64,000 nucleotides of DNA from Butyrivibrio sp. Su6 (GTDB taxonomy: Bacteria > Bacillota > Clostridia > Lachnospirales > Lachnospiraceae). Under the pieces are notes generated by a model. It made no database searches and was not told the origin of the DNA. It saw only the letters and a list, made by a program, of their open reading frames with translations. Positions within the stretch are counted from its first letter, which is position 1. Every line of letters begins with the position of its first letter. Positions 6,225 through 59,068 of this stretch are shown here, one piece after another. Position numbers and translations under genes: made by a program. The stretch lies in the NCBI RefSeq assembly GCF_900108105.1, contig NZ_FNUR01000006.1:124001-188000 (forward strand). Direction: 5' to 3'.

Positions 6225-6256
6225 GGGCAGCGGCCGAGGCCGCTGCCTAGTTTTTG
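6225..6256 (+). terminator. Hairpin terminator/attenuator between scfA and scfB
   Basis: GGCAGCGGCC and GGCCGCTGCC form a near-perfect GC-rich hairpin followed by TAGTTTTTG. It lies between precursor and maturase genes, so it probably lets only part of the transcription reach the enzyme gene. Confidence 0.8.
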
Positions 6257-6289
6257 CACAACTCGCAGAGTTTAGTTTTAGGAGATTTT

Positions 6290-7720: not shown

Positions 7721-7751
7721 GTTAATAAGCTATATGGGAGGATGTATTACA

Positions 7752-43325: not shown

Positions 43326-43350
43326 GAGAATCGTAATAATGGTATGTGAA

Positions 43351-43379
43351 TAGACCATAAACCGTTTGTTTGGTATAAT
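43351..43379 (+). promoter_or_regulatory. Promoter ahead of the signalling/export island
   Basis: TATAAT at 43374 with extended TGG; 17 bp upstream is TAGACC, a partial -35 match. It lies ~70 bp ahead of the histidine kinase. Confidence 0.6.
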
Positions 43380-43449
43380 AAAATAGAAGTGATTGTCGGT
43401 TGAATTATGTGAGGATACGTGAGACGGCGGCTTTTGTGGAGGTAGTGGC

Positions 43450-46263
43450 GTGAAGAGAACGCTGATCATTATTGTTGATCTTTTGATAATGGGATTGATA
43501 CTTTTCTTCATAGTTCAGTATGCCAATACTAAGATGAGGGAAAGCAATGAGAGAGTCGTTGAGGATTTTGAGAAGATGACGATCACTGCGGAACAGATCA
43601 TTACGAATTACCTGGAGGATGAGCAACATCTTTGCGATATTTGGGCGAACTATATTAATCGGTCCGCTGAGGCTGGATCGCCAATGACCGGTGAAGAAGC
43701 AATTTCTTTTATCAGAAAGGCAAAGATATCTTCGAGTATTTATGGACATCTTATATTTCTTGATAAGACCACTCAAAGTGGGATATCTACTCATGCGAGC
43801 TCAAAGGATGCAAATGATTATTCGGTTTCATACCGCAATATTAACATTTTTGACAACATTGATGAGATAAGTAGAGAAGATGGTAAGATCAGCTTAACAA
43901 GAGCGTATACTAATCCCCAGAATGGAGTGCAGTCAATTGCATTTCTTAATTACGTAAAAGTTCTGGATGAGTCAGACGGGCAGCTTTCAGAGGCAATTCT
44001 TATGCGCGTGGAGCCTGTCAGTATGCTTGAGGATAAGCTTGTATTTCTTAAAGGTGAGTATGAAAACGTTGAGATTTCTCTCATTAACAAGGAGGGAGAA
44101 TATCTGGTCCATGGTAAATCGCTGAAAAATTCCAACTTTTTTGAATATTATAAATCCTATAACGAAGGTGACATTGCAGATTACAACGAAATGACAGTCA
44201 AGGTAACTTCGGAGACAGGAACCATGACAATGCTTAACTCAAAAGGAGAGGAATGTGTAATATCCTACACTCCTTTGAAATCAATGAATACATGGTTTCT
44301 TTTGGCTTATATACCAGCAGGTGAACTTAAGGCGGCAAATACAGTTGTTGACTGGCTGTTGCTGGGAATGGTGACACTTGGTCTTTTATCCCTCCTTACC
44401 TTCAATTACCTGATACTGATGCTCTATAACAAAAAGCTTGCTGAGGCGGCGGAGGCTGCTAATCAGGCAAATGAGGCAAAATCACATTTCCTGTCCACTA
44501 TGTCCCACGATATCCGCACTCCTATGAATGCAATCCTGGGACTTAATGAGATGGTGCTGAGAGACAGCCATGAAGATGATATTGTTGCCTATTCTGAGAG
44601 CATAAGGACTGCAGGTAAGACTCTCATGGGAATCATCAATGACATTCTTGATTTTTCAAAGATAGAAGCAGGAAAAATGGATATCATCAATGTGGACTAC
44701 AGCTTTGTATCCATGCTAAATGACCTTGTGAATATGGTTCAGGGAAAAGCACAGGATAAAGGCCTTTCTTTTGACCTTGAAGTAGACAGGAATATTCCGG
44801 TTATATTGCACGGAGATGAGATACGTATTAAACAAATCATCACCAATATTCTTTCAAATGCCGTTAAATACACGAAAGAGGGTTCGATCACCTTTAAAGC
44901 GGGATTTGAAAAGATGGAAGAAGCTCCCGATTCTGTAAAACTCATGATAAGTGTAAAAGACACAGGAATCGGAATAAAACCCGAAGATATGGACCGCTTG
45001 TTTGTTGCTTTTGAACGTATTGATGAGAATAAGAACAGAAACGTAGAAGGAACCGGCCTTGGCATGAGCATTGCCCAGAGCTTTCTGCGAATGATGGGAA
45101 GCAGCATCGAGGTTGAAAGCCAATATGGTAAGGGTTCAACTTTCTCTTTTGAACTGGTTCAGGGGGTAAAAGACTGGAGTCCTATTGGCAATTATGAGGA
45201 GACCTTTAAGCGAGCTGTTTCTGAGAGAAAGAGATATCGTGAAAGCTTTACAGCACCTGATGCAAGACTTTTGGTTGTTGATGATACAGAGGTCAATCTT
45301 TCAGTTTTCAAGAATCTGCTAAAACGTACTAAATTGCAGATAGATACGGCAACAAGTGGAAATGAAGGAATAGCATTATATAAACGAAATAAGTACGATG
45401 CTATTTTTCTTGATCATATGATGCCTGATAAGGATGGAATAGAGACTCTTACGGAGATGAAAGGAATCCAGGATTCGCCTAATACCCTGACGCCGATCAT
45501 ATGTCTTACCGCCAATGCAATTTCAGGAATGCGTGAAATGTATATAAACGCAGGCTTTGACGATTATATTACAAAGCCCATTGATCCCGAGAGGCTTGAA
45601 GTGCTGCTTTTTGAATATCTGCCAAAAGACAAGATTGCTCCTGCATCCGGCGATGGCGATGAGGAAGACTATTATATCCCGGATTTTGTTTGGAAGATCG
45701 GATCTCTTGATGTAAATGCAGGGATCATTCACTGCGGAAGCCAGAAATCCTATATGGATACGCTGAAGACTTATTATGATTCCGGGCAAAAAAATGCAGA
45801 AGAAATTGAAAAGTACTGGAATGAAAAAGATATTAAGAATACTACTGTAAAAATACATGCACTTAAGAGCACCTCCCGTGTAATAGGTGCGATGGAGCTT
45901 GGAGAATTTGCTGCCCGCCTTGAAAAGGCAGGAGAAAAAGGGAATGTAAGGCTCCTTGAAACAGAGATAGGAAATCTTTTGACAATGTATCGGAAGCTGC
46001 TTACAGAGATGGAGCTTTTGGGAAGTACAGATGGAGAAGAGGCGGGGAGTGATGTGCCTCTGATTTCAGAACAGGATATGAAAAAGACCTATGAAACTAT
46101 TGCTGAGCTATGTGAAGCTTTTGATTTTGACGGCGTGGCAGAAACTGTGAAATCCCTTGAAAAGTATAGATTTCCGGAGAGCGAAGCTGCAAAATTTGAA
46201 ACCATAAAAAAGGCTGTCGACAATTTTGATTATGATCTGATACCTGAAATCATATCAGGCTAA
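43450..46263 (+). CDS. Hybrid sensor histidine kinase (sensor, HisKA, HATPase, REC, HPt)
   Basis: 937 aa. An N-terminal membrane helix (about 4-24), an extracellular Cache-like sensor (about 30-285) and a second helix (about 300-322) lead into the kinase. The phosphoacceptor is His353 in MSHDIRTPMNAILG. HATPase boxes are GTGLGMSI and DTGIGI. A REC domain has Asp655 in FLDHMMPDKDG. A C-terminal HPt domain has His803 in KIHALKSTSR. It is a phosphorelay sensor. The start is a GTG at 43450, behind GGAGG. The HD-GYP regulator downstream is the likely partner. Confidence 0.9.
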   Translation: MKRTLIIIVDLLIMGLILFFIVQYANTKMRESNERVVEDFEKMTITAEQIITNYLEDEQHLCDIWANYINRSAEAGSPMTGEEAISFIRKAKISSSIYGHLIFLDKTTQSGISTHASSKDANDYSVSYRNINIFDNIDEISREDGKISLTRAYTNPQNGVQSIAFLNYVKVLDESDGQLSEAILMRVEPVSMLEDKLVFLKGEYENVEISLINKEGEYLVHGKSLKNSNFFEYYKSYNEGDIADYNEMTVKVTSETGTMTMLNSKGEECVISYTPLKSMNTWFLLAYIPAGELKAANTVVDWLLLGMVTLGLLSLLTFNYLILMLYNKKLAEAAEAANQANEAKSHFLSTMSHDIRTPMNAILGLNEMVLRDSHEDDIVAYSESIRTAGKTLMGIINDILDFSKIEAGKMDIINVDYSFVSMLNDLVNMVQGKAQDKGLSFDLEVDRNIPVILHGDEIRIKQIITNILSNAVKYTKEGSITFKAGFEKMEEAPDSVKLMISVKDTGIGIKPEDMDRLFVAFERIDENKNRNVEGTGLGMSIAQSFLRMMGSSIEVESQYGKGSTFSFELVQGVKDWSPIGNYEETFKRAVSERKRYRESFTAPDARLLVVDDTEVNLSVFKNLLKRTKLQIDTATSGNEGIALYKRNKYDAIFLDHMMPDKDGIETLTEMKGIQDSPNTLTPIICLTANAISGMREMYINAGFDDYITKPIDPERLEVLLFEYLPKDKIAPASGDGDEEDYYIPDFVWKIGSLDVNAGIIHCGSQKSYMDTLKTYYDSGQKNAEEIEKYWNEKDIKNTTVKIHALKSTSRVIGAMELGEFAARLEKAGEKGNVRLLETEIGNLLTMYRKLLTEMELLGSTDGEEAGSDVPLISEQDMKKTYETIAELCEAFDFDGVAETVKSLEKYRFPESEAAKFETIKKAVDNFDYDLIPEIISG

Positions 46264-46303
46264 AGCAAAAGAGAAATTCTTTTGGATACGGAAAGGAGTC
46301 AGC

Positions 46304-47617
46304 ATGAAGATTAAAACAGTGAGAATGGCAAAAAGGATGCTGGGATTAACATCGGCTGTAGCAATGGCGTTTTGCTTTACTGCCTGCGGACAAAAAGCGG
46401 AAGAAAGTACTGAGTTTAAACCTGCCTTGTCTTCTGAAACATCATGCCAGATAAAGGTGGCTGGAAACTATTCAAATTTTGAATCCCTTGAGAGCGAGTT
46501 TGAACGCTTTTATGAGTATTATCCGAATGTCAGTCTCAATTACGTAAATCTTGATGATTATAATAACACGATCACAAGCGCGATTATGAGCGATGAGGCT
46601 CCTGATATATATGTAACGGCAACATGGATGCTGGAAGATGATAAAATGGCTCCTGTTTTTGAAAATGCGGAGGTGCTTTCGGATCCGTCGCTTAATATCA
46701 ATCTGGATTGTCTCAGAAAAGGCACCTGCTGGACACTGGAAAATGGAGATGTAGTCATGCTCCCTATTTTTACAAGGACCTATGGAATGCTTGTGAATAT
46801 GGACCTTTTTGAGATGAACGGGCTTGAAGTTCCCAAGAATTACAATGAACTTGTTGATGTTTGTGACAAGCTCAAGGCAGCAGGCTATGAAGTTCCTATT
46901 ATGGGAGCAAATGGCATGACAGTAGCGGGAATGTACTATGCTTTTGCTTTTCCGTATTTTTGTGATTATGTCATTAAAAATCCTGAATCAGTCGAAGCCC
47001 TCAACTCTATGGAAAAGTCTTCAGGGGAAATGATGAGGCCTGCGCTTGAGAAAATAAAAGCTTTTGTGGATGCAGGGTATCTGAATCCGGGGCTTTGCTC
47101 AGAACAGATAGAAGATGATTATAATGCAGTGATCATGCGCTTTTTCGAGGGTGATGTTCCCATAATGCTCGGAAGCGGAGATATGGTTTCCGGTACGCAA
47201 AAGCGCGAGAGCAAGTCTGAAGCTTTTTTGGCAAATTCTTTTAAGTATAAATTTTTCATAGTGCCAACCGGGGATGACGGCGGGTATTTTCTTGATTCTG
47301 TAAACCTGTTTTTTAGTGTAAATAAAAACAGTCAGAACCTTGATATGACTAATGAATTTATAAGGTTTCTTATGAGAGAAGAAGAGCTTGGTAACATGGC
47401 TGCAATTAAGCGACTTACCACACCGACAAACGATTTTTCTTTTGATGAAGTCTATTCATCACTTGAAGGGTTCCCTGAGGATAAGACTTTTAGCTATCAG
47501 GAGACAGGTCTAAATGATGCTGTTAACAAGGAGTTCAGGGCAGCGGCATATAATGTTGCAAATGGCATTATGACTGTAGATGAAGCTATAAGCGGGTACG
47601 GCAGTTTGTGGGAGTAA
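46304..47617 (+). CDS. Extracellular solute-binding lipoprotein (family 1, sugar type)
   Basis: 437 aa. A lipoprotein signal ends in FTACGQ. The mature part resembles family 1 sugar-binding proteins (FERFYEYYPNVSLNYVNLDD, AGYEVPIMGANG). There are no permease or ATPase genes in the cluster. It sits between a sensor kinase with an extracellular domain and a response regulator, so it may deliver a ligand to the sensor rather than to a transporter. This is inference. Confidence 0.82.
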   Translation: MKIKTVRMAKRMLGLTSAVAMAFCFTACGQKAEESTEFKPALSSETSCQIKVAGNYSNFESLESEFERFYEYYPNVSLNYVNLDDYNNTITSAIMSDEAPDIYVTATWMLEDDKMAPVFENAEVLSDPSLNINLDCLRKGTCWTLENGDVVMLPIFTRTYGMLVNMDLFEMNGLEVPKNYNELVDVCDKLKAAGYEVPIMGANGMTVAGMYYAFAFPYFCDYVIKNPESVEALNSMEKSSGEMMRPALEKIKAFVDAGYLNPGLCSEQIEDDYNAVIMRFFEGDVPIMLGSGDMVSGTQKRESKSEAFLANSFKYKFFIVPTGDDGGYFLDSVNLFFSVNKNSQNLDMTNEFIRFLMREEELGNMAAIKRLTTPTNDFSFDEVYSSLEGFPEDKTFSYQETGLNDAVNKEFRAAAYNVANGIMTVDEAISGYGSLWE

Positions 47618-47642
47618 CTGCTGCCTGCGGAAAGGAAATAGA

Positions 47643-48659
47643 ATGGAAGAGCGCGTAGTTGTTGTGGATGATGATGTGATCATATTGAAAAATGCGAACA
47701 CGGTTCTTTCGGAAGCGGGTTTTAAGGTTACATGCCTTAAGAGTGGCAAACTTTTACTGGACTATGTAAAAAAGAATGAGATAGATATGCTTCTTTTGGA
47801 TATCAAAATGCCGGAACTTGACGGCTTTGAGACCATGAGGCTTTTAAGGAAATGGGAAAGAGAAAACGGGGTAAAAGAGATACCGGTGATCTTTTTTACT
47901 GCTAATGATGACTGCGAATCGGAGACTATCGGTTTATCACTTGGGGCAATGGATTTCATCAGAAAGCCCTTTGTTGCAGATGTTTTAACCCTTCGTGTAA
48001 GGCACCTTCTAGACCTTATCAGATTTCAAAATGATCTCCATGCAGAGGTGGAACGCAAGACCAAGGAAATAGAAGGGCTCTCACTCCATGTGGTACATAC
48101 ACTTGCAGATGCGATTGATGCCAAGGATGCCTATACTAAGGGCCATTCAGGGCGAGTTGCCGAGTATGCGAGAGAAATAGCAAAAAGAGCCGGTTATTCT
48201 TTTGACAGGCAGGAAGAAATATACATGATGGGGCTTCTTCACGATGTAGGCAAGATCGGCGTGCCTGACGCGGTGATCAATAAACCGGGTAAGCTTACGG
48301 ATGAAGAGTTTGAAATAATAAAGACACATCCCGGAAGGGGTGCAAGGATCCTTCAGAATATTGAAGAAATGCCGAAGCTTGCCATAGGAGCCAGGTGGCA
48401 CCATGAGCGCTACGACGGAAAAGGTTATCCTGACGGACTATCAGGCGAGGAGATTCCGGAAGAGGCCAGGATCATAGCTGTTGCTGATGCCTATGATGCA
48501 ATGACCAGTAACAGAAGCTACAGAGGCATTATCCCTCAGGATGTGGTCAAAGGAGAGTTTGAGAAGGGCTTGGGAACCCAGTTTGATCCGCGTTTTGCGG
48601 CTATTATGCTTGAAATAATAAGTGAAGACGTGGATTACAAACTTCATGAGGGGACATAA
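47643..48659 (+). CDS. Response regulator with HD-GYP c-di-GMP phosphodiesterase domain
   Basis: 338 aa. The N-terminal receiver domain has the phosphoacceptor in LLLDIKMPELDG. A linker leads to the HD-GYP domain with LLHDVGKIGVPD, HPGRGARIL and HHERYDGKGYPDGL. It should degrade c-di-GMP when phosphorylated by the hybrid kinase. GGAAAGGAAAT precedes the ATG. A STAS gene follows 49 bp after its stop. Confidence 0.92.
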   Translation: MEERVVVVDDDVIILKNANTVLSEAGFKVTCLKSGKLLLDYVKKNEIDMLLLDIKMPELDGFETMRLLRKWERENGVKEIPVIFFTANDDCESETIGLSLGAMDFIRKPFVADVLTLRVRHLLDLIRFQNDLHAEVERKTKEIEGLSLHVVHTLADAIDAKDAYTKGHSGRVAEYAREIAKRAGYSFDRQEEIYMMGLLHDVGKIGVPDAVINKPGKLTDEEFEIIKTHPGRGARILQNIEEMPKLAIGARWHHERYDGKGYPDGLSGEEIPEEARIIAVADAYDAMTSNRSYRGIIPQDVVKGEFEKGLGTQFDPRFAAIMLEIISEDVDYKLHEGT

Positions 48660-48707
48660 GAAGGCGTGCCTTTGAGTTCAATAAATGTATGGCAGGAGAG
48701 ATCAAAG

Positions 48708-49007
48708 ATGCTGAATATTGAAAAAAGAATGGATGGACAGGAACTGATCGTGGAGCTTGAAGGAAGGCTTGATACCTTGACTGCACCACAGCTTGAAAAG
48801 GCTGTCAGCGAGGATATTGAAAAGGCGGAGTCGATTCTTTTTGACTTCGGAAAGCTTGAGTATATTTCAAGTGCAGGCCTTCGTGTAATAAATGCTGTTG
48901 ATATTGAAATGAGTGAAAAGAAGGGAATGGCACTTAAAGACGTACATGGAAGTGTCATGGATGTTTTGGAGCTTACCGGTCTTTCTAATGAGCTTAAGAT
49001 AATCTGA
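48708..49007 (+). CDS. STAS domain protein (anti-sigma factor antagonist type)
   Basis: 99 aa, a single STAS domain. The core is IVELEGRLDTLTAPQLEKAV and FDFGKLEYISSAGLRVI, where the second Ser of YISSAG is the usual phosphorylation site. Such proteins switch partners with anti-sigma kinases and are dephosphorylated by SpoIIE-type phosphatases. A phosphatase of that type lies 5.7 kb downstream in the same island. No anti-sigma kinase or sigma factor gene is in the window. AGGAGAG supports the ATG at 48708. Confidence 0.88.
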   Translation: MLNIEKRMDGQELIVELEGRLDTLTAPQLEKAVSEDIEKAESILFDFGKLEYISSAGLRVINAVDIEMSEKKGMALKDVHGSVMDVLELTGLSNELKII

Positions 49008-49039
49008 TGACCGGTGGCAGAGCTAAAACGGAGGTAATC

Positions 49040-49474
49040 ATGGGTAGTAGCGAAAAAAAAGCTGGTGGTCCATTGTTTAGAAAAAAGGCACTTACAAGGA
49101 TCGCATCTCCGGAGGAACTAAACGATTATCTAAAGGTTACAAATCCGGCTAACTGGATGATACTTGGATCCATCATTGCTATTCTTATTGGAATCATTGT
49201 GTGGTCATTTGCGGGTAACTTAAATACCTATGTATCAGGTGAAGCTGTAGCAGAGGATGGCCAGATCACAGCTCATATAGTAAATGATAATGCCCGGTAT
49301 ATAAGGGAAGGGCAGACCATAATGATAGGTGAAAAGACATCCAAAGTTTTTAAAGTTGAACAGGATGAGTTTGGAAGGACCAGGGTGGAAGCATCTATGG
49401 ATATTCCGGACGGTGAGTACATGGTAAAGATAGTGATTGAGCAGATAACACCATTTGAGCTTTTATTCAATTAG
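49040..49474 (+). CDS. NHLM/NHLP-type bacteriocin system secretion protein, short adaptor
   Basis: 144 aa. A cytoplasmic start (LFRKKALTRIASPEELNDYLKVTNPANW) is followed by one membrane helix (about 38-58) and a short extracellular beta-rich part. The beginning matches the HlyD-like adaptor of NHLM export systems, but the long coiled-coil section of full-length members (I expect ~300-400 aa) is missing. It probably assists the C39-peptidase transporter that starts 17 bp downstream. CGGAGG supports the ATG at 49040. Confidence 0.75.
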   Translation: MGSSEKKAGGPLFRKKALTRIASPEELNDYLKVTNPANWMILGSIIAILIGIIVWSFAGNLNTYVSGEAVAEDGQITAHIVNDNARYIREGQTIMIGEKTSKVFKVEQDEFGRTRVEASMDIPDGEYMVKIVIEQITPFELLFN

Positions 49475-49490
49475 ATACCGGAGATGACGG

Positions 49491-51668
49491 ATGAATAAAA
49501 AAATAAAGCAGCCAGTTGGTGCCGGCGTTGCTAAGGTTCCGGTAATAATGCAAATGGAAACTTTGGAATGCGGGGCTGCATCACTGGCCATGGTAATGGC
49601 ATATTACGATAAATGGATACCCTTGGAGCAGGTTCGCGTGGACTGCGGCGTTTCAAGGGATGGTTCAAATGGAAAAAATATAATGCTGGCGGCAAGGAAC
49701 TATGGCTTTGAAGCAAAGGGATTTTTTTATGAGCCGGAAACACTGAAGAAGAAAGGTGTATTTCCTTGCATTATCCACTGGGACTTTAACCATTTTGTTG
49801 TTCTTGATGGCTTTAAGGGCAGCTCGGTATATATCAATGATCCCGCAAGAGGGGCCATCAAGGTGTCCATGGAGGAATTTGATGAGTCTTTTACGGGAGG
49901 CTGTATAAAAATAAAGCCCGGAGAAAACTTCGTTCCTGAGGGCAGAAGAAAGAGTACGCTTGAGTTTGCACAAAAAAGACTAAAGGGCGCAGGTGCCGCT
50001 GTTGTACTTGCTACGCTTACGACCATTATCACATATCTTTTTGGAATCATAAATCCGGTCATGTCCAAGGTCTTTATAGACAGACTTCTCACAGGCAAGA
50101 ACCCGGAGTGGCTCTATCCATTTACGGGAATAATGACAGGGCTTGCTTTGCTTCAGCTTATTGCCCAGTGGGTGGGGACAACAAGTTCACTTAAGGTAAA
50201 CGGAAAAATGGCGATGGTCGGAAGTACTTCCTATATGTGGAAAGTACTGAGGATGCCAATGGAGTTCTTTTCACAGAGGCTGACGGGTGACATTATCCAA
50301 AGGCAGGCTACCAATGAAACTATCGCAGGAACACTGGTGAGCACGGTTGCCCCTTTGGCACTAAATACCATAATGATGATATTTTATCTGGTGGTGATGC
50401 TAAGGTACAGTGTGATGCTTACCTTTGTGGGGATCACTACGATAGTGATAGATCTGATAATTGCCAGATTTATGTCAGAGAAAAGAGTTAACATCACCAG
50501 GGTCCAGATGAGGGACAAAGGCAAGCTTTCAAGTGCCACTGTTTCAGGAATGAGTATGGCTGAGACCATAAAGGCCAGCGGCGCTGAGGATAGTTTTTTT
50601 GCCAAATGGGCAGGACTTCAGGCATCGGTTAATTCACAGGAGTGCAGATATGATGAGCTCAATGTATCCCTTGGAATGATCCCGCAGCTTGTGGGAATGC
50701 TGGCTAGTGATGTTGTAATGCTTTTGGGAATATGGCTTTCCATGAACGGAGAGTTTACTGTCGGCGGGATCATGACCTTTCAGGGGTTCCTACAAGCCTT
50801 CATGAGCCCTGCGCTGACACTTATTTCAGCCGGGCAGACCGTGCAGGAGATGCGCACCGAGATGGAGAGAATAGAGGATGTAATGAATTATCCTCTTGAT
50901 CCTTTTGTTAAGGATGAGCCTGTTTCTGAGGATGAGGATTACAGTAAGCTTCCTGGTGAGCTGGAGCTTAAAAACGTTACTTTTGGTTACAATAAGCTAA
51001 GGGAACCAATCATAAAAGACTTTTCAATAAAGCTTGAGCCCGGCAGCAGGGTTGCCTTTGTAGGCAGCAGCGGATGTGGAAAATCTACACTTTCCAAGCT
51101 TATTTCAGGACTTTACAGACCCTGGAGCGGGGAGATTCTCTTTTCCGGGAAACCCATTGAAAGTATCGACAGAAGCGTATTTACCGGATCTTTAGCAGTT
51201 GTGGATCAGGATATTATTCTTTTTGAGGATACAATAGCCAATAACATAAAAATGTGGGACAACTCCATAAAGGACTACGAAATGGTCCTGGCGGCCAGGG
51301 ATGCCCAGCTCCATGAGGATATCATGCAAAGAGATGGCGGATATCAGTATGTACTTACGGAGGGAGGAAAGGATTTCTCAGGCGGTCAGAGACAGAGACT
51401 TGAGATAGCACGTGTCCTTGCGCAGGATCCTTCTGTAATAATCCTTGATGAAGCGACCAGCGCGCTTGATGCCAAAACTGAATATGATGTGGTAAGTGCA
51501 ATTAAGGACAGAGGAATTACCTGCATAGTTATTGCTCACAGACTGTCAACCATACGTGACTGTGACGAGATAGTTGTACTGGATAAGGGAGTTGTGGTCG
51601 AGCGTGGAACACATGAAGAACTAATGAAATTAGGCGGTTATTACACAGAGCTTGTAACAAGTGAGTGA
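49491..51668 (+). CDS. NHLM-type peptide exporter: C39 peptidase, permease and ATPase in one chain
   Basis: 725 aa. The N-terminal C39 peptidase has Cys27 in LECGAAS, the His in WDFNHFVVL and Asp in NDPA. A six-helix transmembrane domain follows (about 165-440), then an ATPase with GSSGCGKST, FSGGQRQRLEIARVL and VIILDEATSALD. It should cut leader peptides after a double glycine and export the core. Three double-glycine peptides lie downstream. Confidence 0.93.
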   Translation: MNKKIKQPVGAGVAKVPVIMQMETLECGAASLAMVMAYYDKWIPLEQVRVDCGVSRDGSNGKNIMLAARNYGFEAKGFFYEPETLKKKGVFPCIIHWDFNHFVVLDGFKGSSVYINDPARGAIKVSMEEFDESFTGGCIKIKPGENFVPEGRRKSTLEFAQKRLKGAGAAVVLATLTTIITYLFGIINPVMSKVFIDRLLTGKNPEWLYPFTGIMTGLALLQLIAQWVGTTSSLKVNGKMAMVGSTSYMWKVLRMPMEFFSQRLTGDIIQRQATNETIAGTLVSTVAPLALNTIMMIFYLVVMLRYSVMLTFVGITTIVIDLIIARFMSEKRVNITRVQMRDKGKLSSATVSGMSMAETIKASGAEDSFFAKWAGLQASVNSQECRYDELNVSLGMIPQLVGMLASDVVMLLGIWLSMNGEFTVGGIMTFQGFLQAFMSPALTLISAGQTVQEMRTEMERIEDVMNYPLDPFVKDEPVSEDEDYSKLPGELELKNVTFGYNKLREPIIKDFSIKLEPGSRVAFVGSSGCGKSTLSKLISGLYRPWSGEILFSGKPIESIDRSVFTGSLAVVDQDIILFEDTIANNIKMWDNSIKDYEMVLAARDAQLHEDIMQRDGGYQYVLTEGGKDFSGGQRQRLEIARVLAQDPSVIILDEATSALDAKTEYDVVSAIKDRGITCIVIAHRLSTIRDCDEIVVLDKGVVVERGTHEELMKLGGYYTELVTSE

Positions 51669-51674
51669 GGGAAT

Positions 51675-53876
51675 ATGCTTAATTGGTTTGATAAACAGAT
51701 TAGACAGAGAAAACAAAGTGATCAGGAAGTGTTTGAGGATTCCATTGTCCAGATTGCTGCTGTAGTTATGGGCGGCAGGGCTGCTGATGATATAAACGAT
51801 GAGCGTATTATCACTAAAAATGCAATAGATGATATCCTGAAATATTATCACTTCAAGCCCTCTGAAATCCCTGCAGGAATAAATGACAGGGAAGAGGAGA
51901 TGGAATGGGCATTCAGACCTCACGGTTTTATGAAAAGAGAGGTGAAGCTTTCGGACGGATGGTACAAAAATGCTTTCGGCCCGATGATTGCCTTTACAAA
52001 AGAGGGAAATGAACCGGCAGCGCTCCTTCCTGGTGAATTTGGTGGTTATCATCTTATAGATCACAAAAGCAGCAAAAAGATCAAGATCAGTTCGAAAAAT
52101 GCCGGTGAGCTTTCTGATATGGCCTATTGTTTTTACAGACCCCTTCCACTTAGGAAAATCGGGATACCTGATTTGCTCCTTTATATGAAAAGCTGTATCG
52201 AATTTAATGACTATGCAGTTTTGCTAATAGCATCCCTGTTTGTGACTTTACTTGGAATGATCGCTCCAAGACTATCAAAGCTCCTCACAGGACCGGTACT
52301 TATAAGTGGCAGTAGAAGGCTTCTACTTGGCATTGCACTTCTTATGGTATGTACAGCCATTACATCCCAGCTTGTGAGCACTATCAGAGAAATTGTGATA
52401 AAGCGTATAGGGCGAAAGGCTTCACTTCAGGTCGAAGCGGCGGTTATGATGAGAATAATATCTCTGCCCTCGGATTTTTTTAGAAAATATGGGGCAGGCA
52501 ATCTGGCAGAAAGAGCCGATGCGGTCAGTTCTCTCTGTGACATGCTGATCGGGGATGTTCTTTCAATTGGTATAACGAGTATCTTTTCGCTGCTTTATAT
52601 CTTTCAGATTGCAAATTTCGCTCCGGAGCTTGCAGGACCAGCTGTTTTGATCATTCTTGTGACAGTAGTTGTTGGTCTTATCACCTCGCTTATGCAGATG
52701 CAGCTTTCGAGTAATCAGATGCAGCTAAGTGTAAGAGAGTCTGGTTTAAAGTATGCGATTGTTTCGGGAATCCAGAAGATAAAGCTTGCAGGGGCAGAGA
52801 AAAGAGTTTTTGCAAAGTGGGCAGGAATTTATGCCAAAGAGGCAGAATTTCAGTATAGTCCACCTCTTTTCATAAAACTCAATACAGTAATCACAACAGC
52901 CATTTCTTTGTTTGGAACAATAATCCTGTATTTTCTTGCGGTAAAAAGTGGTATTGGAGTATCGGGATATTATGCTTTTTCCATTTCCTATGGAATGGTC
53001 ATGGGCGCTTTTTCTGCACTTAGCGGTATCGCTATTTCAATTGCTCAGATACCGCCTGTCCTTGAAATAGCGGATCCTATTCTTAAGGCCGGGCCGGAAG
53101 TTATGGAGGATAAGGAGGTACTTACAAAGATTTCTGGAGGCATCGAACTGAACAATGTTTCTTTTCGTTATAATGACCAGATGCCATATGTTATAGATGA
53201 TCTTTCACTTAGGATAAAACCCGGAGAATACGTAGGACTGGTTGGAAAGACCGGTTGCGGAAAATCCACACTTATGAGGATACTGTTGGGATTTGAAAAG
53301 CCTTCAAAGGGCGCTGTCTACTATGATGGAAAAGATATCAATAGCATTGATCTTAGATCTCTTAGAAGAAAAATTGGTTCCGTGATGCAAAATGGGGAGC
53401 TGTTCCAGGGAGATATTTATGAAAATATAGTTATCTCGGCGCCACAGCTTACACTTGATGATGCGTGGGAAGCCGCCGAGCTTGCGGGAATTGCAGACGA
53501 TATACGGGACATGCCTATGGGAATGCAGACGCTTGTTAGTGAAGGGCAAGGCGGCATATCGGGAGGCCAAAGGCAGCGCATAATGATAGCCCGCGCCATT
53601 GCTCCAAAGCCTAAGATTCTCATTTTTGATGAAGCTACCTCAGCCCTTGATAATTTAACTCAGAAGAAGGTCTCTAAGGCTCTAGATAGCCTTAGGTGCA
53701 CAAGGATAGTTATTGCTCACAGGCTGTCAACAATCAGAAACTGCGACAGGATACTGGTACTTGATAAAGGAAAAATTGTCGAAGAGGGCAGTTACGACCA
53801 GCTTATTGAAAAGAATGGCTTTTTTGCAGAACTGATAAAGAGGCAGCGCGTAGATGTAAGCACCGAATGTAGCTAA
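51675..53876 (+). CDS. NHLM-type second ABC transporter (permease-ATPase)
   Basis: 733 aa. An unusual ~160-residue cytoplasmic N-terminal region without a recognised peptidase motif is followed by a six-helix domain and an ATPase (GKTGCGKST, ISGGQRQRIMIARAI, ILIFDEATSALDN). This is the second exporter subunit found next to the C39 transporter in NHLM systems, and the two probably form a heterodimer. It begins 6 bp after the first transporter's stop. Confidence 0.92.
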   Translation: MLNWFDKQIRQRKQSDQEVFEDSIVQIAAVVMGGRAADDINDERIITKNAIDDILKYYHFKPSEIPAGINDREEEMEWAFRPHGFMKREVKLSDGWYKNAFGPMIAFTKEGNEPAALLPGEFGGYHLIDHKSSKKIKISSKNAGELSDMAYCFYRPLPLRKIGIPDLLLYMKSCIEFNDYAVLLIASLFVTLLGMIAPRLSKLLTGPVLISGSRRLLLGIALLMVCTAITSQLVSTIREIVIKRIGRKASLQVEAAVMMRIISLPSDFFRKYGAGNLAERADAVSSLCDMLIGDVLSIGITSIFSLLYIFQIANFAPELAGPAVLIILVTVVVGLITSLMQMQLSSNQMQLSVRESGLKYAIVSGIQKIKLAGAEKRVFAKWAGIYAKEAEFQYSPPLFIKLNTVITTAISLFGTIILYFLAVKSGIGVSGYYAFSISYGMVMGAFSALSGIAISIAQIPPVLEIADPILKAGPEVMEDKEVLTKISGGIELNNVSFRYNDQMPYVIDDLSLRIKPGEYVGLVGKTGCGKSTLMRILLGFEKPSKGAVYYDGKDINSIDLRSLRRKIGSVMQNGELFQGDIYENIVISAPQLTLDDAWEAAELAGIADDIRDMPMGMQTLVSEGQGGISGGQRQRIMIARAIAPKPKILIFDEATSALDNLTQKKVSKALDSLRCTRIVIAHRLSTIRNCDRILVLDKGKIVEEGSYDQLIEKNGFFAELIKRQRVDVSTECS

Positions 53877-53987
53877 TTCTTAATATTGTGTTTAGAAACA
53901 TATTAGAGGGTTTTTACATTCATACTGTAAAATATCTGCATGAATTACTATATTTCATGGCTTTGAAATCTTTTTTAGGAGGATTTA

Positions 53988-54299
53988 ATGATGAGAATTG
54001 ATGAACTTACACCTGAACTATTAGAAAAGGCAAAAAAATGCGAAAGCTACGAAGAAAGAATGGCATTTATCAGTGAAAATGAAATTGAACTTTCAGATGA
54101 GCAGATGGAAGCATTGAGTGGTGGCGGTGGAAAAGCAATAGAAAGAGGATTAGTTAAAGGAAAAATTATGACTTGCCGCGAATGCAAAGAAGGACAAATG
54201 GTTAAGACTGGAAGAACCAAACCTGGAAAAATCTTTGGTGATTTTTGGCCGGATGAAGAGTGGAAATGCAACAGTTGCGGATTTATTAAATGGATTTGA
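53988..54299 (+). CDS. Double-glycine leader precursor peptide with Cys4 zinc-ribbon-like core (1)
   Basis: 103 aa. The leader (about 1-46) is Nif11-like (ELTPELLEKAKKCESYEER) and ends in LSDEQMEALSGG, the cut site for the C39 peptidase upstream. The core has CREC and CNSC, 26 residues apart, in a zinc-ribbon or rubredoxin-knuckle-like pattern, with GKIFGDFWPDEEW between. No modifying enzyme is nearby, so it may be exported unmodified. AGGAGG precedes two adjacent ATGs (53988, 53991). It is almost a twin of the next gene. Confidence 0.85.
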   Translation: MMRIDELTPELLEKAKKCESYEERMAFISENEIELSDEQMEALSGGGGKAIERGLVKGKIMTCRECKEGQMVKTGRTKPGKIFGDFWPDEEWKCNSCGFIKWI

Positions 54300-54341
54300 A
54301 ATTAAACAATCATTTTCTATAAATATCAGGAGGACATAAAA

Positions 54342-54653
54342 ATGAAATTAAATGAACTTACACCTGAACTTTTAGAAAAGGCCAAAAAATGCGAAAGCTA
54401 TGAAGAAAAAATGGCATTTATCAGTGAGAATGAAATTGAGCTGTCAGATGAGCAAATGGAAGCATTGAGTGGCGGCGGAACGCCTCAAAACGGAGAAAAA
54501 GCAAGAGATGCCAAATATACTTGCCGTAAATGTAAAAAAGGAACCATGCAAAAGACTGGTAAAACCAGACCCGGAAAGATTTTTGGAGATTTATGGCCTG
54601 ATGTAGAAATGAAATGTAATGCATGTGGTTTCACAAAATTCTGGAATTGGTAA
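54342..54653 (+). CDS. Double-glycine leader precursor peptide with Cys4 zinc-ribbon-like core (2)
   Basis: 103 aa, tandem duplicate of the previous gene. The leader is nearly identical at both DNA and protein level (MKLNELTPELLEKAKKCESY). The core has diverged more but keeps CRKC and CNAC, the GKIFGDLWPD loop, and aromatic residues at the end (FTKFWNW). Conservation of the four cysteines against wider drift suggests selection on the core fold. AGGAGG is 10 bp upstream. Confidence 0.85.
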   Translation: MKLNELTPELLEKAKKCESYEEKMAFISENEIELSDEQMEALSGGGTPQNGEKARDAKYTCRKCKKGTMQKTGKTRPGKIFGDLWPDVEMKCNACGFTKFWNW

Positions 54654-54726
54654 TCCATAAACATCGGCAATCAGGGACAGGATATGGCTCTATGCTGCCG
54701 TGGTGGAATGTTTTGTGGAGAACGAA

Positions 54727-56415
54727 ATGAATCGCGCAAAAAAGAGAAAAAAAAGATATGTTTCGTTACAGGTCAAGACGTTCAGGGCAATCATGATTGG
54801 CGCACTTGTCCTTATACTTGCAGGGACTGCTACGGGTCTTTTACTGCATATTTACTTGTTCCTGCGGCAATATAAAGTCGAGTCCCGTCATCAGCTTGAG
54901 AGTATGTTGGCGCTTCAGGACAGTGCCTATATAGAAAAAATCTATCAGGAAACCAGAGAAATATATGACAATCTTCCGGAGGAAATCAGAAGTGATCAGA
55001 TGTCAGATGAGTTTTATAATGCATTCAGACCTCTGGTGGATGATGATTTTTTGGCTGCCAGAGATATCCTTGTGATATTTCGTGAAAAGATGGAGCAGCG
55101 CAATGTGTTTTTAATGTTTCCGGATAGGGAAAATAACCGCGTAGTGTATGTTGTTGACGGTGATGAAGCGGAGTGGGCTTACCTTCCCGGGCAGTGGACA
55201 GATGCGGATATTGAAGATACGGAAAAAATAGTTGATTCATCATGGCGCCTTGCAATTACCCATGACAGTGAGTATGGGTGGATTGGTTCAGAAGTCTTAC
55301 CTGTTTACGGACAAAATGGTGATATGCTGGGATATGCCGTGGCAGATATTGATCTGAATGACTTTCTTAAGTCGATACTTCGTTTTCTTGTGATCCTTGT
55401 GATTGTCGCGGTTCTGCTGGTAGTTCTTTTGGCATTTGTATTTGCTAAGATGCTAAAGAATCATATTATCAGGTATTTGGTTTCAATGGCCTGTGCTGCG
55501 CGGAACTATACGCAGATGGACAAAGTGAATTTGGATATGGAGACTCCCTCTGTATACGAGCCTCTTGCAATTGAAACAGCTGACGAGATTGAGGATCTTT
55601 GGAAGAACATGATCGAGATGGAATCTGATATAAAGGATTCCATTGTAAGGCTCAGAGACATTACTGCGCAGCAGGAGAGGATAGAAGCAGAGCTGGCAAT
55701 TGCCACCAGAATACAGATGGGTATGCTCCCTGATAAATTCCCGGATAGCTCTGAGTATGAGCTTTTTGCGTCAATGGAGCCTGCATTGGAGGTCGGCGGA
55801 GATCTGTATGACTTTTTTATGGTGGATGATACTCATCTGGCCATGGTAATCGCTGATGTTTCAGACAAGGGCGTTTCTGCAGCTCTTTTTATGGTTATCA
55901 CAAAGACACTGATACGAAGCCAGGCTGAGCAGGGAGTTCAGGATCCTGCTCAGATTTTTGCAATCGTGAATAGAAAACTGATGGAAGTGAACCGTGCCCA
56001 TATGTTTGTTACGGCATGGCTTGGAATTCTTGACCTTCAAAGCGGCAGAGTTGTTTATGTCAACGCAGGTCATGAATATCCCGCTGTCAGGAGAGCAGGT
56101 GAATCCTTTGAAATCCTCAAGGATGTGCACTGTCTGCCTCTTGCTGCAAGATTGAAAGTGGAATTCAGATCGGGAGAGTTTATGCTTAGCCCAGGCGATG
56201 CGCTTTTTCTTTATACGGATGGAGTACCTGAGGCAAATAACGAGAATAATGAACTTTTGGGCGTAGATAAGATGATTGAGATATTGAACAGTATTCCGGA
56301 TGCTGATCCTAAAGAAGTAATTGCAAATGTGAAGGAGGGCATTGCGGAATTTGTTAAAGATTCAAAGCAGTTTGATGATACGACCATGCTGTGTCTTAGG
56401 TTTAAAGGAAATTAA
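54727..56415 (+). CDS. SpoIIE-type PP2C serine phosphatase, membrane-anchored
   Basis: 562 aa. A membrane helix (about 22-46) is followed by an extracellular segment (about 50-215), a second helix, a HAMP-like linker and a coiled coil. A SpoIIE/RsbU PP2C domain completes it (about 330-560): VGGDLYDFFMVDD, IADVSDKGVSAALFM, LYTDGVPEANN, FDDTTML. It should dephosphorylate a STAS protein, and the one at 48708 is a candidate. GGAG supports the ATG at 54727. Confidence 0.9.
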   Translation: MNRAKKRKKRYVSLQVKTFRAIMIGALVLILAGTATGLLLHIYLFLRQYKVESRHQLESMLALQDSAYIEKIYQETREIYDNLPEEIRSDQMSDEFYNAFRPLVDDDFLAARDILVIFREKMEQRNVFLMFPDRENNRVVYVVDGDEAEWAYLPGQWTDADIEDTEKIVDSSWRLAITHDSEYGWIGSEVLPVYGQNGDMLGYAVADIDLNDFLKSILRFLVILVIVAVLLVVLLAFVFAKMLKNHIIRYLVSMACAARNYTQMDKVNLDMETPSVYEPLAIETADEIEDLWKNMIEMESDIKDSIVRLRDITAQQERIEAELAIATRIQMGMLPDKFPDSSEYELFASMEPALEVGGDLYDFFMVDDTHLAMVIADVSDKGVSAALFMVITKTLIRSQAEQGVQDPAQIFAIVNRKLMEVNRAHMFVTAWLGILDLQSGRVVYVNAGHEYPAVRRAGESFEILKDVHCLPLAARLKVEFRSGEFMLSPGDALFLYTDGVPEANNENNELLGVDKMIEILNSIPDADPKEVIANVKEGIAEFVKDSKQFDDTTMLCLRFKGN

Positions 56416-56498
56416 GTAGAGAATTAAAAATTGCCACGGTGGTTCTTTTTTCGTATCAATATGTGAAACGACGATCAGGTAAAAAAGGAGCGTTAGCC

Positions 56499-56702
56499 AT
56501 GAGTAAAGATAGTATAAAAAAAGAAAAACTTAGTCTTGATGAACTCGGAACAGTTTCCGGCGGAAATGCAATTTTTGAGCCGATAGGGGAATCTGGTTTT
56601 GATTACGATTCAATTTCTGCTCCTGATGCTTATACGCCTTTTAAGAATAATTCAGGTCCCCATGACCATTCCAAAAAGCAAAAAGGCAGGATGAAACCCT
56701 GA
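56499..56702 (+). CDS. Third double-glycine leader peptide, cysteine-free
   Basis: 67 aa. The leader MSKDSIKKEKLSLDELGTVSGG ends in a double glycine suited to the C39 peptidase upstream. The ~45-residue core has no cysteine and is rich in Asp, Pro, Ser and a basic tail (KKQKGRMKP). AAAAAAGGAG is well placed before the ATG at 56499; a longer in-frame form would start at 56439. It resembles no known bacteriocin that I can name. Confidence 0.7.
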   Translation: MSKDSIKKEKLSLDELGTVSGGNAIFEPIGESGFDYDSISAPDAYTPFKNNSGPHDHSKKQKGRMKP

Positions 56703-56717
56703 AGAGGGATAAATCTA

Positions 56718-56746
56718 TTGACAAAAAAATTTAAGGCTTTTATACT
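56718..56746 (+). promoter_or_regulatory. Sigma-A promoter of the T-box/trpXYZ operon
   Basis: TTGACA, 17 bp, TATACT: close to consensus. It directs transcription into the leader starting near 56753. Confidence 0.85.
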
Positions 56747-56756
56747 TTAACTTAAT

Positions 56757-57037
56757 AAACCGTTGCGGGAGAGTAAGTAACCGATATGTGAGCATCACAG
56801 CTAGTCGCAGATGGTGAGAGTGCGATATGCAGCATGACGGCGAATGGACTTCCAAGGGCAAACAGAAAAGGGTTACACCTTAGTATGGGCGACGGGGCAG
56901 GACTCCCCGTTATAAAAGGTCAGCATATGTATGTATGCGTTAAGAGGGCGTCTATGACGTCAAGCAGGGTGGCACCGCAGATGATTATATTATCTGTCCC
57001 GGCATTTTAACAATGCAGGGGGCAGATTTTTTTTTGC
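56757..57037 (+). promoter_or_regulatory. Tryptophan-responsive T-box leader
   Basis: A ~280-nt leader with the T-box hallmarks: the AGAGAGT-like GAGAGTAAGTAA near the start, GGTGAGAG in the stem I head, and AGGGTGGCACCGC at 56967-56979. The specifier follows GAA and reads TGG at 56845-56847, matching tRNA-Trp. The antiterminator competes with a terminator at 56992-57037. Uncharged tRNA-Trp should turn on the transporter genes downstream. Confidence 0.93.
56992..57037 (+). terminator. Regulated terminator of the T-box leader
   Basis: ATCTGTCCC pairs with GGGGGCAGAT with inner pairs, followed by eight or more Ts. Confidence 0.88.
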
Positions 57038-57081
57038 TTTAAGAAATCTGCTCCGAAACAAAAACCCAAAGGAGAAAAGAT

Positions 57082-58152
57082 ATGAAAAAAGCACAGATCA
57101 CAAAGAAACTAATGTCAATTGGAATGGCCGCAGCTATCGGCCTTGTAGCAGCAGGGTGCGGCTCTTCCGGCGCTGGCACCACAGGAACTAGTGAACAGGC
57201 AGGTACAGGAGCTAAAGAGTACAAGATCGGCATATGCAATTATGTTGATGATGCTTCTCTTAATCAGATCGTAGATAATATTCAGAGTGAGCTAAGTGCC
57301 ATAGCAGAGAAGGAAGGCGTCACATTTAATATCAAATATGACAACTGTAATGCAGATGCCAATGTACTTAATCAGATCGTAGCTAATTTCCAGGCTGATA
57401 ATGTAGACCTGATGATAGGTGTAGCTACACCTGTTGCTATGGCAATGCAGGGAGCAACTGATGGTCAGGATACACCTGTTGTATTTTCTGCTGTATCTGA
57501 TCCTATTTCAACAGGACTTGTAGCTTCTATGGATGCTCCCGGAGCAAATGTTACAGGTACATCAGATATGCTCAATACAGAGGCAATCATGAACATGATC
57601 CTGGCAGCAGATCCTGATATTTCAAAGGTTGGTCTTTTATATGATGCAGGTCAGGATGCATCCACAACAGCCATCAAAGATGCAAAAGAATTTCTTGAAG
57701 CACATAATATCGAAGTCGTTGAGCAGACAGGAACCAATGTAGAAGAGGTTACTCTTGCAGCCAATGCACTGGTTTCTGCCGGAGTAGAAGCGATTTTCAC
57801 ACCAACAGACAATACTATTATGACAGCTGAGCTTTCAATCTATGAGCTCTTCCGCGAAGCAGGTATCCCTCACTACTGCGGAGCTGACTCTTTTGCACTT
57901 AACGGAGCTTTCCTTGGATTTGGTGTTAACTATGCAGACCTTGGAAAAGAGACTGCTGATATGGCAGCTGACATTCTGCTAAATGCAAAGGATCCGGGCA
58001 GCGTTGCAGTTAAGACTTTTGACAATGGTATCGTAACGCTCAATGAAGAAATGATGGAGGCTCTTGGCATGGACATGGAGAGCGCAGAAAAAGCTTTTGG
58101 AGCCTATGCTTCATCAATCCAGACCATCAAGACCGCAGAGAGTTTTGAATAA
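57082..58152 (+). CDS. trpX: Tryptophan ABC transporter substrate-binding lipoprotein (TrpX-like)
   Basis: 356 aa. A lipoprotein signal ends in AAGCGSS. The mature protein belongs to the ABC_sub_bind group (KIGICNYVDDASLNQIVDN, DLMIGVATPVAMAMQ, FSAVSDPISTGLV, VGLLYDAGQDASTTAI). The Trp-specific T-box upstream supports tryptophan as substrate. GGAG precedes the ATG. Confidence 0.9.
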   Translation: MKKAQITKKLMSIGMAAAIGLVAAGCGSSGAGTTGTSEQAGTGAKEYKIGICNYVDDASLNQIVDNIQSELSAIAEKEGVTFNIKYDNCNADANVLNQIVANFQADNVDLMIGVATPVAMAMQGATDGQDTPVVFSAVSDPISTGLVASMDAPGANVTGTSDMLNTEAIMNMILAADPDISKVGLLYDAGQDASTTAIKDAKEFLEAHNIEVVEQTGTNVEEVTLAANALVSAGVEAIFTPTDNTIMTAELSIYELFREAGIPHYCGADSFALNGAFLGFGVNYADLGKETADMAADILLNAKDPGSVAVKTFDNGIVTLNEEMMEALGMDMESAEKAFGAYASSIQTIKTAESFE

Positions 58153-58174
58153 TTATTTATAGAGGTTAAAAGAA

Positions 58175-59068
58175 ATGATATCCCTTATTCAAACTGCTGT
58201 TGAGCTGGGACTTATCAGCTCTCTTACAGTACTTGCTTTGTATATGAGTTATACCATGTTGAATGTATGTGATCTGTCAACAGACGGAGCATTCACCATG
58301 GGTGCTGCAGTAGGAGCAGTGGTTACACTGGCAGGCCATCCTTTTCTTGCGCTTCCTGCAGCAATGCTGTCAGGTATGCTGTCCGGCTTTGTGACAGCTC
58401 TTTTACAGACTAAAATGGGCGTTGACAGCCTTCTTGCGGGTATTACTGTCAACACAGCTTTGTATTCCGTTAATATTGCTGTAATGGGAAAGTCTTCGCT
58501 GCTTAATCTTAACAGTTCAGGAAGCATTTTTTCATTTGCTTCAGACCTGTTGGATGGCAGTGCTGCGGATCCTTATTCCAAACTTATAGTGATAACCCTT
58601 ATAGTTATGCTGGTTATGATCTGTATCATTACATTCTTAAGGACAAGACTTGGACTTGCCATAAGGGCAACGGGAGACAATCCGGATATGGTCAGATCTT
58701 CATCAATCAATACTGTTGCTATCACTATTACAGGGCTTTGTTTGTCCAATGCGCTTACAGCTCTTTCAGGATGTCTTTTGGCTCAATATAACAAATCCGC
58801 CAACATTGACATAGGAACCGGAATGCTGACAATTGCTCTTGCATCCCTTCTTATTGGCAGGCTCTTTTTTAGAAATAAGGGAGTAGGTCATGGAGTAATA
58901 GGAGCTGTGATCGGAGCCATATTCTTCAGACTTGTCTACACCATGGCGCTCAGGCTCAATATGCCTGCCTTTATGCTAAAACTTGTTTCTTCCGTAATTG
59001 TCATTCTGGCAATAAGCGGACCTTATTTCCTTGGAAAGATGAGGAAGAAAGGAGGGGCCAATGCTTAA
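58175..59068 (+). CDS. trpY: Tryptophan ABC transporter permease (TrpY-like)
   Basis: 297 aa with about eight or nine membrane helices, of the branched-chain/ribose permease type (DLSTDGAFTMGAAVGAV, GLAIRATGDNPDMVRSSSI). The latter motif is the coupling loop to the ATPase. It begins 22 bp after trpX and overlaps trpZ by 8 bp. Confidence 0.9.
   Translation: MISLIQTAVELGLISSLTVLALYMSYTMLNVCDLSTDGAFTMGAAVGAVVTLAGHPFLALPAAMLSGMLSGFVTALLQTKMGVDSLLAGITVNTALYSVNIAVMGKSSLLNLNSSGSIFSFASDLLDGSAADPYSKLIVITLIVMLVMICIITFLRTRLGLAIRATGDNPDMVRSSSINTVAITITGLCLSNALTALSGCLLAQYNKSANIDIGTGMLTIALASLLIGRLFFRNKGVGHGVIGAVIGAIFFRLVYTMALRLNMPAFMLKLVSSVIVILAISGPYFLGKMRKKGGANA

Follow-up and report, generated by a model that had tools for sequence, protein, structure and literature searches.

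An NHLM-type export unit with Cys4 double-glycine precursors, partner-switching genes and no local maturase in Butyrivibrio sp. Su6

According to the accessible parts of Haft et al. (2010, PMC2887384), the three-gene NHLM exporter (TIGR03794/TIGR03796/TIGR03797) is defined by its co-occurrence with NHLP precursors and modifying enzymes, and no mention is made there of SpoIIE, STAS or sigma proteins as regulators. Likewise, the accessible parts of two mining studies, one of anaerobes (PMC4289311) and one of rumen isolates (PMC13289728), describe no zinc-ribbon cargo. We found no account of such cargo, or of partner switching, in connection with NHLM or double-glycine export in the literature covered, which was seen in part and lay mostly outside subscription papers. 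Here, we describe an export unit at 48653-56707 of a 64,000-nucleotide stretch of Butyrivibrio sp. Su6 (contig NZ_FNUR01000006.1; the whole stretch is called the window), in which an NHLM-type exporter adjoins precursors with four-cysteine (Cys4) cores as well as STAS and SpoIIE-type genes. We put a probability of roughly 60% on the reading that this is a maturase-free NHLM-type export unit that secretes small folded Cys4 domains and is gated by partner switching.

The exporter and its precursors

Both ABC proteins of the unit pass the NCBI equivalog cut-offs for NHLM exporters. Subunit 1 (ABC1; 49491..51668, + strand), a C39 peptidase-permease-ATPase, scores 898.4 bits with TIGR03796 (cut-off 853.3), and subunit 2 (ABC2; 51675..53876, +), a permease-ATPase, scores 727.1 bits with TIGR03797 (cut-off 709.4), in agreement with the exporter type named in a preliminary description of this DNA. 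The short HlyD/membrane-fusion-like adaptor (49007..49474, +), with one transmembrane-like segment, falls below the NHLM HlyD cut-off (TIGR03794, 35 versus 156.2 bits) and matches positions 1-53 of 421 only, that is, the first eighth of the model, with most of the HlyD body gone. Homologues of similar length lie directly upstream of ABC1 in 66 loci, indicating that the short form is usual in the clade. Lachnospiraceae exporter loci carry the short adaptor only, whereas in Selenomonas/Anaerovibrio loci (L041-L046, L049-L051) the NHLM exporter often stands with a full-length adaptor, a sigma factor and an outer membrane efflux protein (OEP), the last confirmed at L044.

Downstream of ABC2 lie two double-glycine precursors with Cys4 cores, A (53988..54299, +) and B (54342..54653, +). 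Their 45-residue leaders are 91% identical and below the NHLP and Nif11 cut-offs (TIGR03793, 11.3-11.6 versus 50.9; TIGR03798, 13.5 versus 32.3), while their cores are 58% identical and both carry two CxxC knuckles (CxxC...CxxC), as had been described. The only clear relative of these precursors was found in genome G012 (E 1.7e-36; 64% identity to B), and the four Cys together with TG..xPGKIFGxxWPDxE are kept in all three. Among 200,000 shuffles, CxxC-x(8-40)-CxxC turned up by chance 416 and 381 times for the two cores. Nonsynonymous divergence (dN) is 0.38-0.47 in the cores versus 0.04-0.12 in the leaders; we rejected a hypervariable, positively selected core, as the ratio to synonymous divergence (dN/dS) is <1 where computable, with dS near saturation. 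Shuffles, dN/dS and models would together support a folded core, and the cores are weakly predicted to be zinc ribbons. The proposal that they may fold around a metal is in keeping with this weak ribbon prediction. Ephrin_rec_like and radical SAM target leaders, tried as core identities in Pfam and NCBIfam, were dropped as below cut-off.

No maturase family was recognised among the island proteins in scans that covered ten of eleven proteins with Pfam and ten of eleven with NCBIfam (the third peptide by NCBIfam only, the kinase by Pfam only), as the preliminary description had claimed. The search for a distant maturase yielded a SCIFF radical SAM enzyme at 6254-7720, ~42 kb upstream of the unit (TIGR03974, 762 bits, cut-off 425), which is the one peptide maturase in the rest of the window among 25 of 77 families listed, as well as radical SAM genes near another exporter of this genome (see below). 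A SecD/SecF-type gene (7734-10040) directly follows the SCIFF maturase.

Cargo of related exporters and ribbon peptides elsewhere

Using ABC1 as a query (E <= 1e-150), we found exporters in 23 of the 61 genomes of a relatives set, all within its 37 same-genus genomes, and in 35 of 299 family-set genomes. With 51 more loci from named public contigs, the total was 109 exporter loci after removal of duplicates (L034 and L015, on the same contigs as L096 and L099), continuations (L058, L060) and loci without ABC1; 40 control stretches of 20 kb each were drawn from regions of the own and family genomes distant from exporters. Strict double-glycine peptides occurred in 50/109 exporter loci versus 4/40 controls (p = 2.2e-5). 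Cys4 cores were present in nine exporter loci (the window, L006, L012, L020, L022, L024, L096, L097 and L100), which make seven independent cases because L020, L022 and L024 hold one peptide in three assemblies; one control stretch (L195) also carries one such peptide. At one of these nine loci, L012, a radical SAM gene lies no more than 10 kb away. Upon grouping loci by leader length, which depends on the chosen starts, we found radical SAM genes, the maturase class that this census covered, in 11/17 loci with leaders of >50 residues versus 3/33 loci with short leaders only (p = 7.6e-5).

Other folded domains also occur on double-glycine peptides near exporters: SH3 at L018 (two above cut-off) and L017 (below cut-off), and LysM at L027, about 8 kb downstream of ABC2. 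Two further core families recur. One, with a pattern similar to AFxDAWDKLxMExKGYTGxxRAELxDxW, lies both near and away from exporters (L110 4456-4722, L216 1417-1713, L223 2756-3037), and the other has an end similar to DWxKYVWIExxGSLxGF (L020 1144-1428, L123 8534-8824), its L123 copy giving no NCBIfam match. Two genes are common to the ribbon loci L097 and L100, one metallophosphoesterase-like and one for a secreted protein of roughly 1150-1170 residues.

The own genome holds three NHLM exporters. Besides the window unit, there is an exporter on contig C11, accompanied by a pair of Cys-rich, Nif11-like peptides and by three radical SAM cluster genes (one Pfam-checked), a classic layout for ribosomally synthesized and post-translationally modified peptides (RiPPs). 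The exporter on C10, whose ABC1 is 94% identical to that of a G012 exporter, has a sigma factor and a STAS gene nearby and no strict double-glycine peptide nearby.

To follow the ribbon peptides across genomes, we used a profile from four of them, with matches listed down to about E 0.06. Among the matches listed, leader plus core occurred in 14/23 same-genus genomes with ABC1 versus 0/14 without (p = 1.3e-4), and in 11/20 versus 0/14 (p = 5.9e-4) when genomes supplying query rows were excluded. In the wider family, double-glycine ribbons were found in G253 and G300, which have the exporter, and in G195, an exporter-less genome of another genus (2/34 versus 1/263, p = 0.036); the G195 peptide (L252) adjoins a SARP-like response regulator. 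The own genome is one of the 14 same-genus genomes with a match, its orphan double-glycine ribbon lying at C20:114354. As such orphans and the G012 precursor lack a local exporter, we suggest that exporters serve cargo in trans. At the orphan loci L227, L233 and L235, the ribbons adjoin SpoIIE-type phosphatases that share 34-36% identity with the window protein in the sensor region.

Partial matches that start after position 11 were not scored as double-glycine. Nine of them were read individually: six have a Sec-type or, in G023, an unassigned start, and three are unrelated larger zinc proteins. Ribbons with a Sec-type N-terminus, judged by eye, occur in G003, G004, G005, G011, G013, G020, G027, G028 and G030, of which G004, G027, G028 and G030 are exporter-less, and over a stretch of 36 residues one Sec-type ribbon shares 58% identity with a double-glycine one. 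These Sec-type homologues are the strongest hint that the ribbon works extracellularly and unmodified.

Regulatory genes and the limits of the unit

Partner switching of the SpoIIE/RsbU-STAS-RsbW type and the SiaABCD system employ a membrane PP2C phosphatase and a single-domain STAS protein. Both kinds of gene are present in the window unit. The STAS anti-sigma-antagonist-like protein (48708..49007, +; PF01740, 47.4 bits; ant_ant_sig, 59.2 bits, cut-off 53.45) has a reading frame that opens at 48666, with the likely start at 48708, behind a ribosome-binding site. The membrane SpoIIE-type (PP2C) phosphatase (54700..56415, +; PF07228, 154.2 bits), whose GTG start is uncertain, has an N-terminal sensor region between two transmembrane-like segments. 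It is followed by the third double-glycine peptide, C (56499..56702, +), which has no Cys and a core that looks disordered; its reading frame opens at 56439, and the likely start was judged by the ribosome-binding site. The unit itself contains no RsbW-like kinase (HATPase_c_2) and no target of one, the best own-genome candidate for the kinase lying on another contig (C13:12803, 76.7 bits).

With profiles from recurrent clusters, we counted regulators up to 10 kb from ABC1 in loci no shorter than 14 kb and found partner-switching genes to be linked to this exporter type: STAS in 25/85 loci versus 0/40 controls (p = 1.7e-5), RsbW-like ATPases in 17/85 versus 0/40 (p = 8e-4) and sigma factors in 24/85 versus 0/40 (p = 2.8e-5). 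The link of SpoIIE is weak (24/85 versus 5/40, p = 0.039). Cluster representatives matched HATPase_c_2, Sigma70 regions 2 and 4, and Radical_SAM in Pfam, while the RsbW-like cluster 22 (~207 residues) was without a Pfam match and was named by eye. As an independent check with the Pfam STAS model, two of four own-genome STAS places adjoin exporters. These counts support the earlier suggestion of partner switching. Neither histidine kinases (17/85 versus 12/40, p = 0.93) nor SARP-like regulators (22/85 versus 8/40) were enriched.

The limits of the unit follow from an alignment with a sister locus, L217 in genome G012. Synteny holds on either side, with 90-98% identity for the genes upstream and 94-100% for those downstream, and the DNA of L217 matches the window at 43327-48652 (89.1%) and 56708-58400 (91.9%). 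Between these flanks only the two precursor leaders align (83%), and the intervening DNA measures 8.06 kb in the window versus ~0.43 kb, holding one precursor, in L217. The sister locus keeps this precursor together with the genes for the hybrid kinase, the solute-binding protein and HD-GYP, and it is without STAS, the adaptor, both ABC genes, SpoIIE and the third peptide. STAS-adaptor-ABC1-ABC2-A-B-SpoIIE-C was hence gained or lost as a block, and the separable unit spans 48653-56707 (+).

The preliminary description had drawn a wider island of eleven genes on a single strand, from the kinase to the third double-glycine peptide. All eleven are indeed present at 43450-56702 and co-oriented on the + strand, as read from translations of open reading frames with Pfam and NCBIfam; Pfam recognised a hybrid kinase (HisKA, HATPase_c, REC, Hpt), SBP_bac_1, REC-HD, STAS, C39 peptidase and ABC, and SpoIIE. 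Because the exporter is absent from L217, where both flanks and the genes for kinase, solute-binding protein and HD-GYP remain, this island was too wide, and we judge the hybrid kinase, solute-binding lipoprotein and REC-HD-GYP (43450..48659, +) to be a neighbour module outside the export unit. Homologues of the solute-binding protein occur in 20 of 36 other same-genus genomes, none near an exporter found by the ABC1 search, as judged by contig and position within the limits of draft contigs; in G022, the two lie on one contig about 232 kb apart. Among eleven such loci read as reading-frame maps, six have kinase, solute-binding protein and HD-GYP, four have kinase and solute-binding protein, and one has the kinase only, and 0/11 hold an NHLM-like ABC pair (generic ABC matches of 22-28% only).

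Kinase and HD-GYP genes are thus not linked to the exporter across genomes, STAS genes are, and SpoIIE genes are weakly. As the neighbour module is separable from the export unit and occurs elsewhere without exporters, control by cyclic di-GMP, which had been proposed, loses its support, and we rejected such gating. Overall, the earlier interpretation is supported in part: for the NHLM exporter, the lack of a local maturase, the Cys4 cores with their weak ribbon prediction and the linkage of partner-switching genes, and not for membership of the kinase, solute-binding and HD-GYP genes or for cyclic di-GMP.

Directly after the unit lies a T-box-like leader (56754-57004), found in a narrow search only (69 bits versus a gathering score of 93); at the gathering score, Rfam gave nothing in 40000-64000. 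This leader precedes an ABC transporter set, the sister substrate-binding protein of which resembles TrpX (201.8 bits, cut-off 390).

Proposed mechanism, alternatives and known systems

We propose that A and B are made ribosomally, each with its Cys4 core behind a helical leader of the double-glycine type, that the C39 domain of ABC1 would cut them after GG, and that ABC1/ABC2 and the shortened adaptor would move the unmodified core out of the cell, where, in a reducing, anaerobic milieu, Zn (or Fe) may be coordinated by the four thiolates within a ribbon fold. The same ABC1/ABC2 route would serve peptide C. The SpoIIE-type phosphatase may sense an outside cue and dephosphorylate STAS, which would then engage a kinase of the RsbW type, plus a sigma factor in sister loci, and thereby act on the exporter. 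The same scheme may hold for sister exporters, with SH3 and LysM domains as their small folded cargo. SH3 and LysM bind cell walls in known proteins, which suggests an envelope site for the peptides; as to their extracellular role, our guess is either an envelope-associated one or one in competition or communication.

Several points weigh against this proposal. No curated zinc-ribbon family scored above cut-off for either window core, and database support for the term 'zinc ribbon' is weak for both. The Sec-type evidence comes from a sister family of ribbons and does not extend to A and B. Near-duplicate loci left in the census (e.g., L020/L022/L024, L013/L014 and L095/L098) inflate its counts and, together with the circularity of home-made profiles, weaken the regulator p-values.

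An ordinary RiPP modified in trans, with a maturase elsewhere in the genome (e.g., beside the third exporter, or SCIFF) acting on the Cys cores before export, is unlikely. The SCIFF maturase inside the window, and the Cys-rich Nif11-like double-glycine peptides and radical SAM genes at the third exporter locus, speak for it; however, the third-exporter peptides share little with the window precursors (best leader match E 0.05), and radical SAM genes are generally missing from short-leader loci. Moreover, both the spacing of the four Cys and the residues from one knuckle to the next show the conservation of a fold rather than of scattered modification sites, and homologous ribbons of the sister family exit by Sec without a RiPP leader. 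We also consider it improbable that A, B (and C) form an unmodified class II-like, multi-peptide bacteriocin in which the four Cys make disulfides. While a double-glycine leader with a C39 exporter is the standard bacteriocin route, and two adjacent paralogous peptides, a third one and the faster divergence of cores than leaders would suit it, the unit holds no recognised immunity-like gene, a metal suits the CxxC pairs and their ribbon-type prediction better than disulfides do, and sister cargo includes SH3 and LysM domains. A metal ribbon could itself be antimicrobial. That the peptides are autocrine or quorum signals which feed back on export, with the SpoIIE-type phosphatase (or else the neighbouring kinase) as their sensor, seems very unlikely: the phosphatase gene lies directly between B and C, and the related sensor regions at L227, L233 and L235 agree with it, but a SpoIIE neighbour was present in only 3/11 orphan loci read at about 3 kb or less, and sister-family ribbon cores are alike across species, unlike strain-specific pheromones.

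Secretion of folded Cys4 domains by a maturase-free, partner-switched unit remains our preferred reading. We extend it tentatively, at somewhat less than even odds, to rumen Lachnospiraceae at large: NHLM exporters may there serve generally to secrete small folded domains, among them zinc ribbons, SH3, LysM and other families without a name, with short double-glycine leaders replacing Sec signals, cargo genes beside or far from the exporter, no maturase, and a SpoIIE/STAS/RsbW/sigma switch. Under such a general route, cargo would be defined by fold rather than modification, because homologous ribbons swap Sec and double-glycine leaders. Genome-mining pipelines label NHLM exporters as modified-peptide makers; if this branch ships unmodified metal-binding mini-proteins, many gut and rumen 'RiPP-like' calls would be mis-filed, a new set of secreted small proteins would become testable, and the pairing with partner switching would offer a first regulatory handle.

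The unit resembles the NHLM/NHLP cluster in its C39-ABC and second ABC, which pass the cut-offs, and in the adjoining double-glycine precursors, and differs from it in the HlyD fragment, sub-cut-off leaders, lack of a modifying enzyme, Cys4 ribbon-like cores and partner-switching genes. Nif11-leader RiPP loci in this genome and its family (e.g., L059, L120 and L122) belong to the same exporter superfamily but have radical SAM genes and long leaders, which the unit lacks. Leader, GG site, C39 exporter and the lack of a maturase are as in class II double-glycine bacteriocins, from which the NHLM-type two-ABC exporter, the metal-domain-like cores and the lack of a recognised immunity gene set it apart. 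Finally, the PP2C phosphatase, for which SiaA is the best NCBIfam match although far below cut-off (62.4 versus 700), and STAS recall SpoIIE/RsbU-STAS-RsbW and SiaABCD, as do the RsbW-like kinases and sigma factors of sister loci; unlike in those systems, the window unit carries no kinase or sigma factor and shows no recognised link to a diguanylate cyclase, and its switch genes adjoin a peptide exporter.
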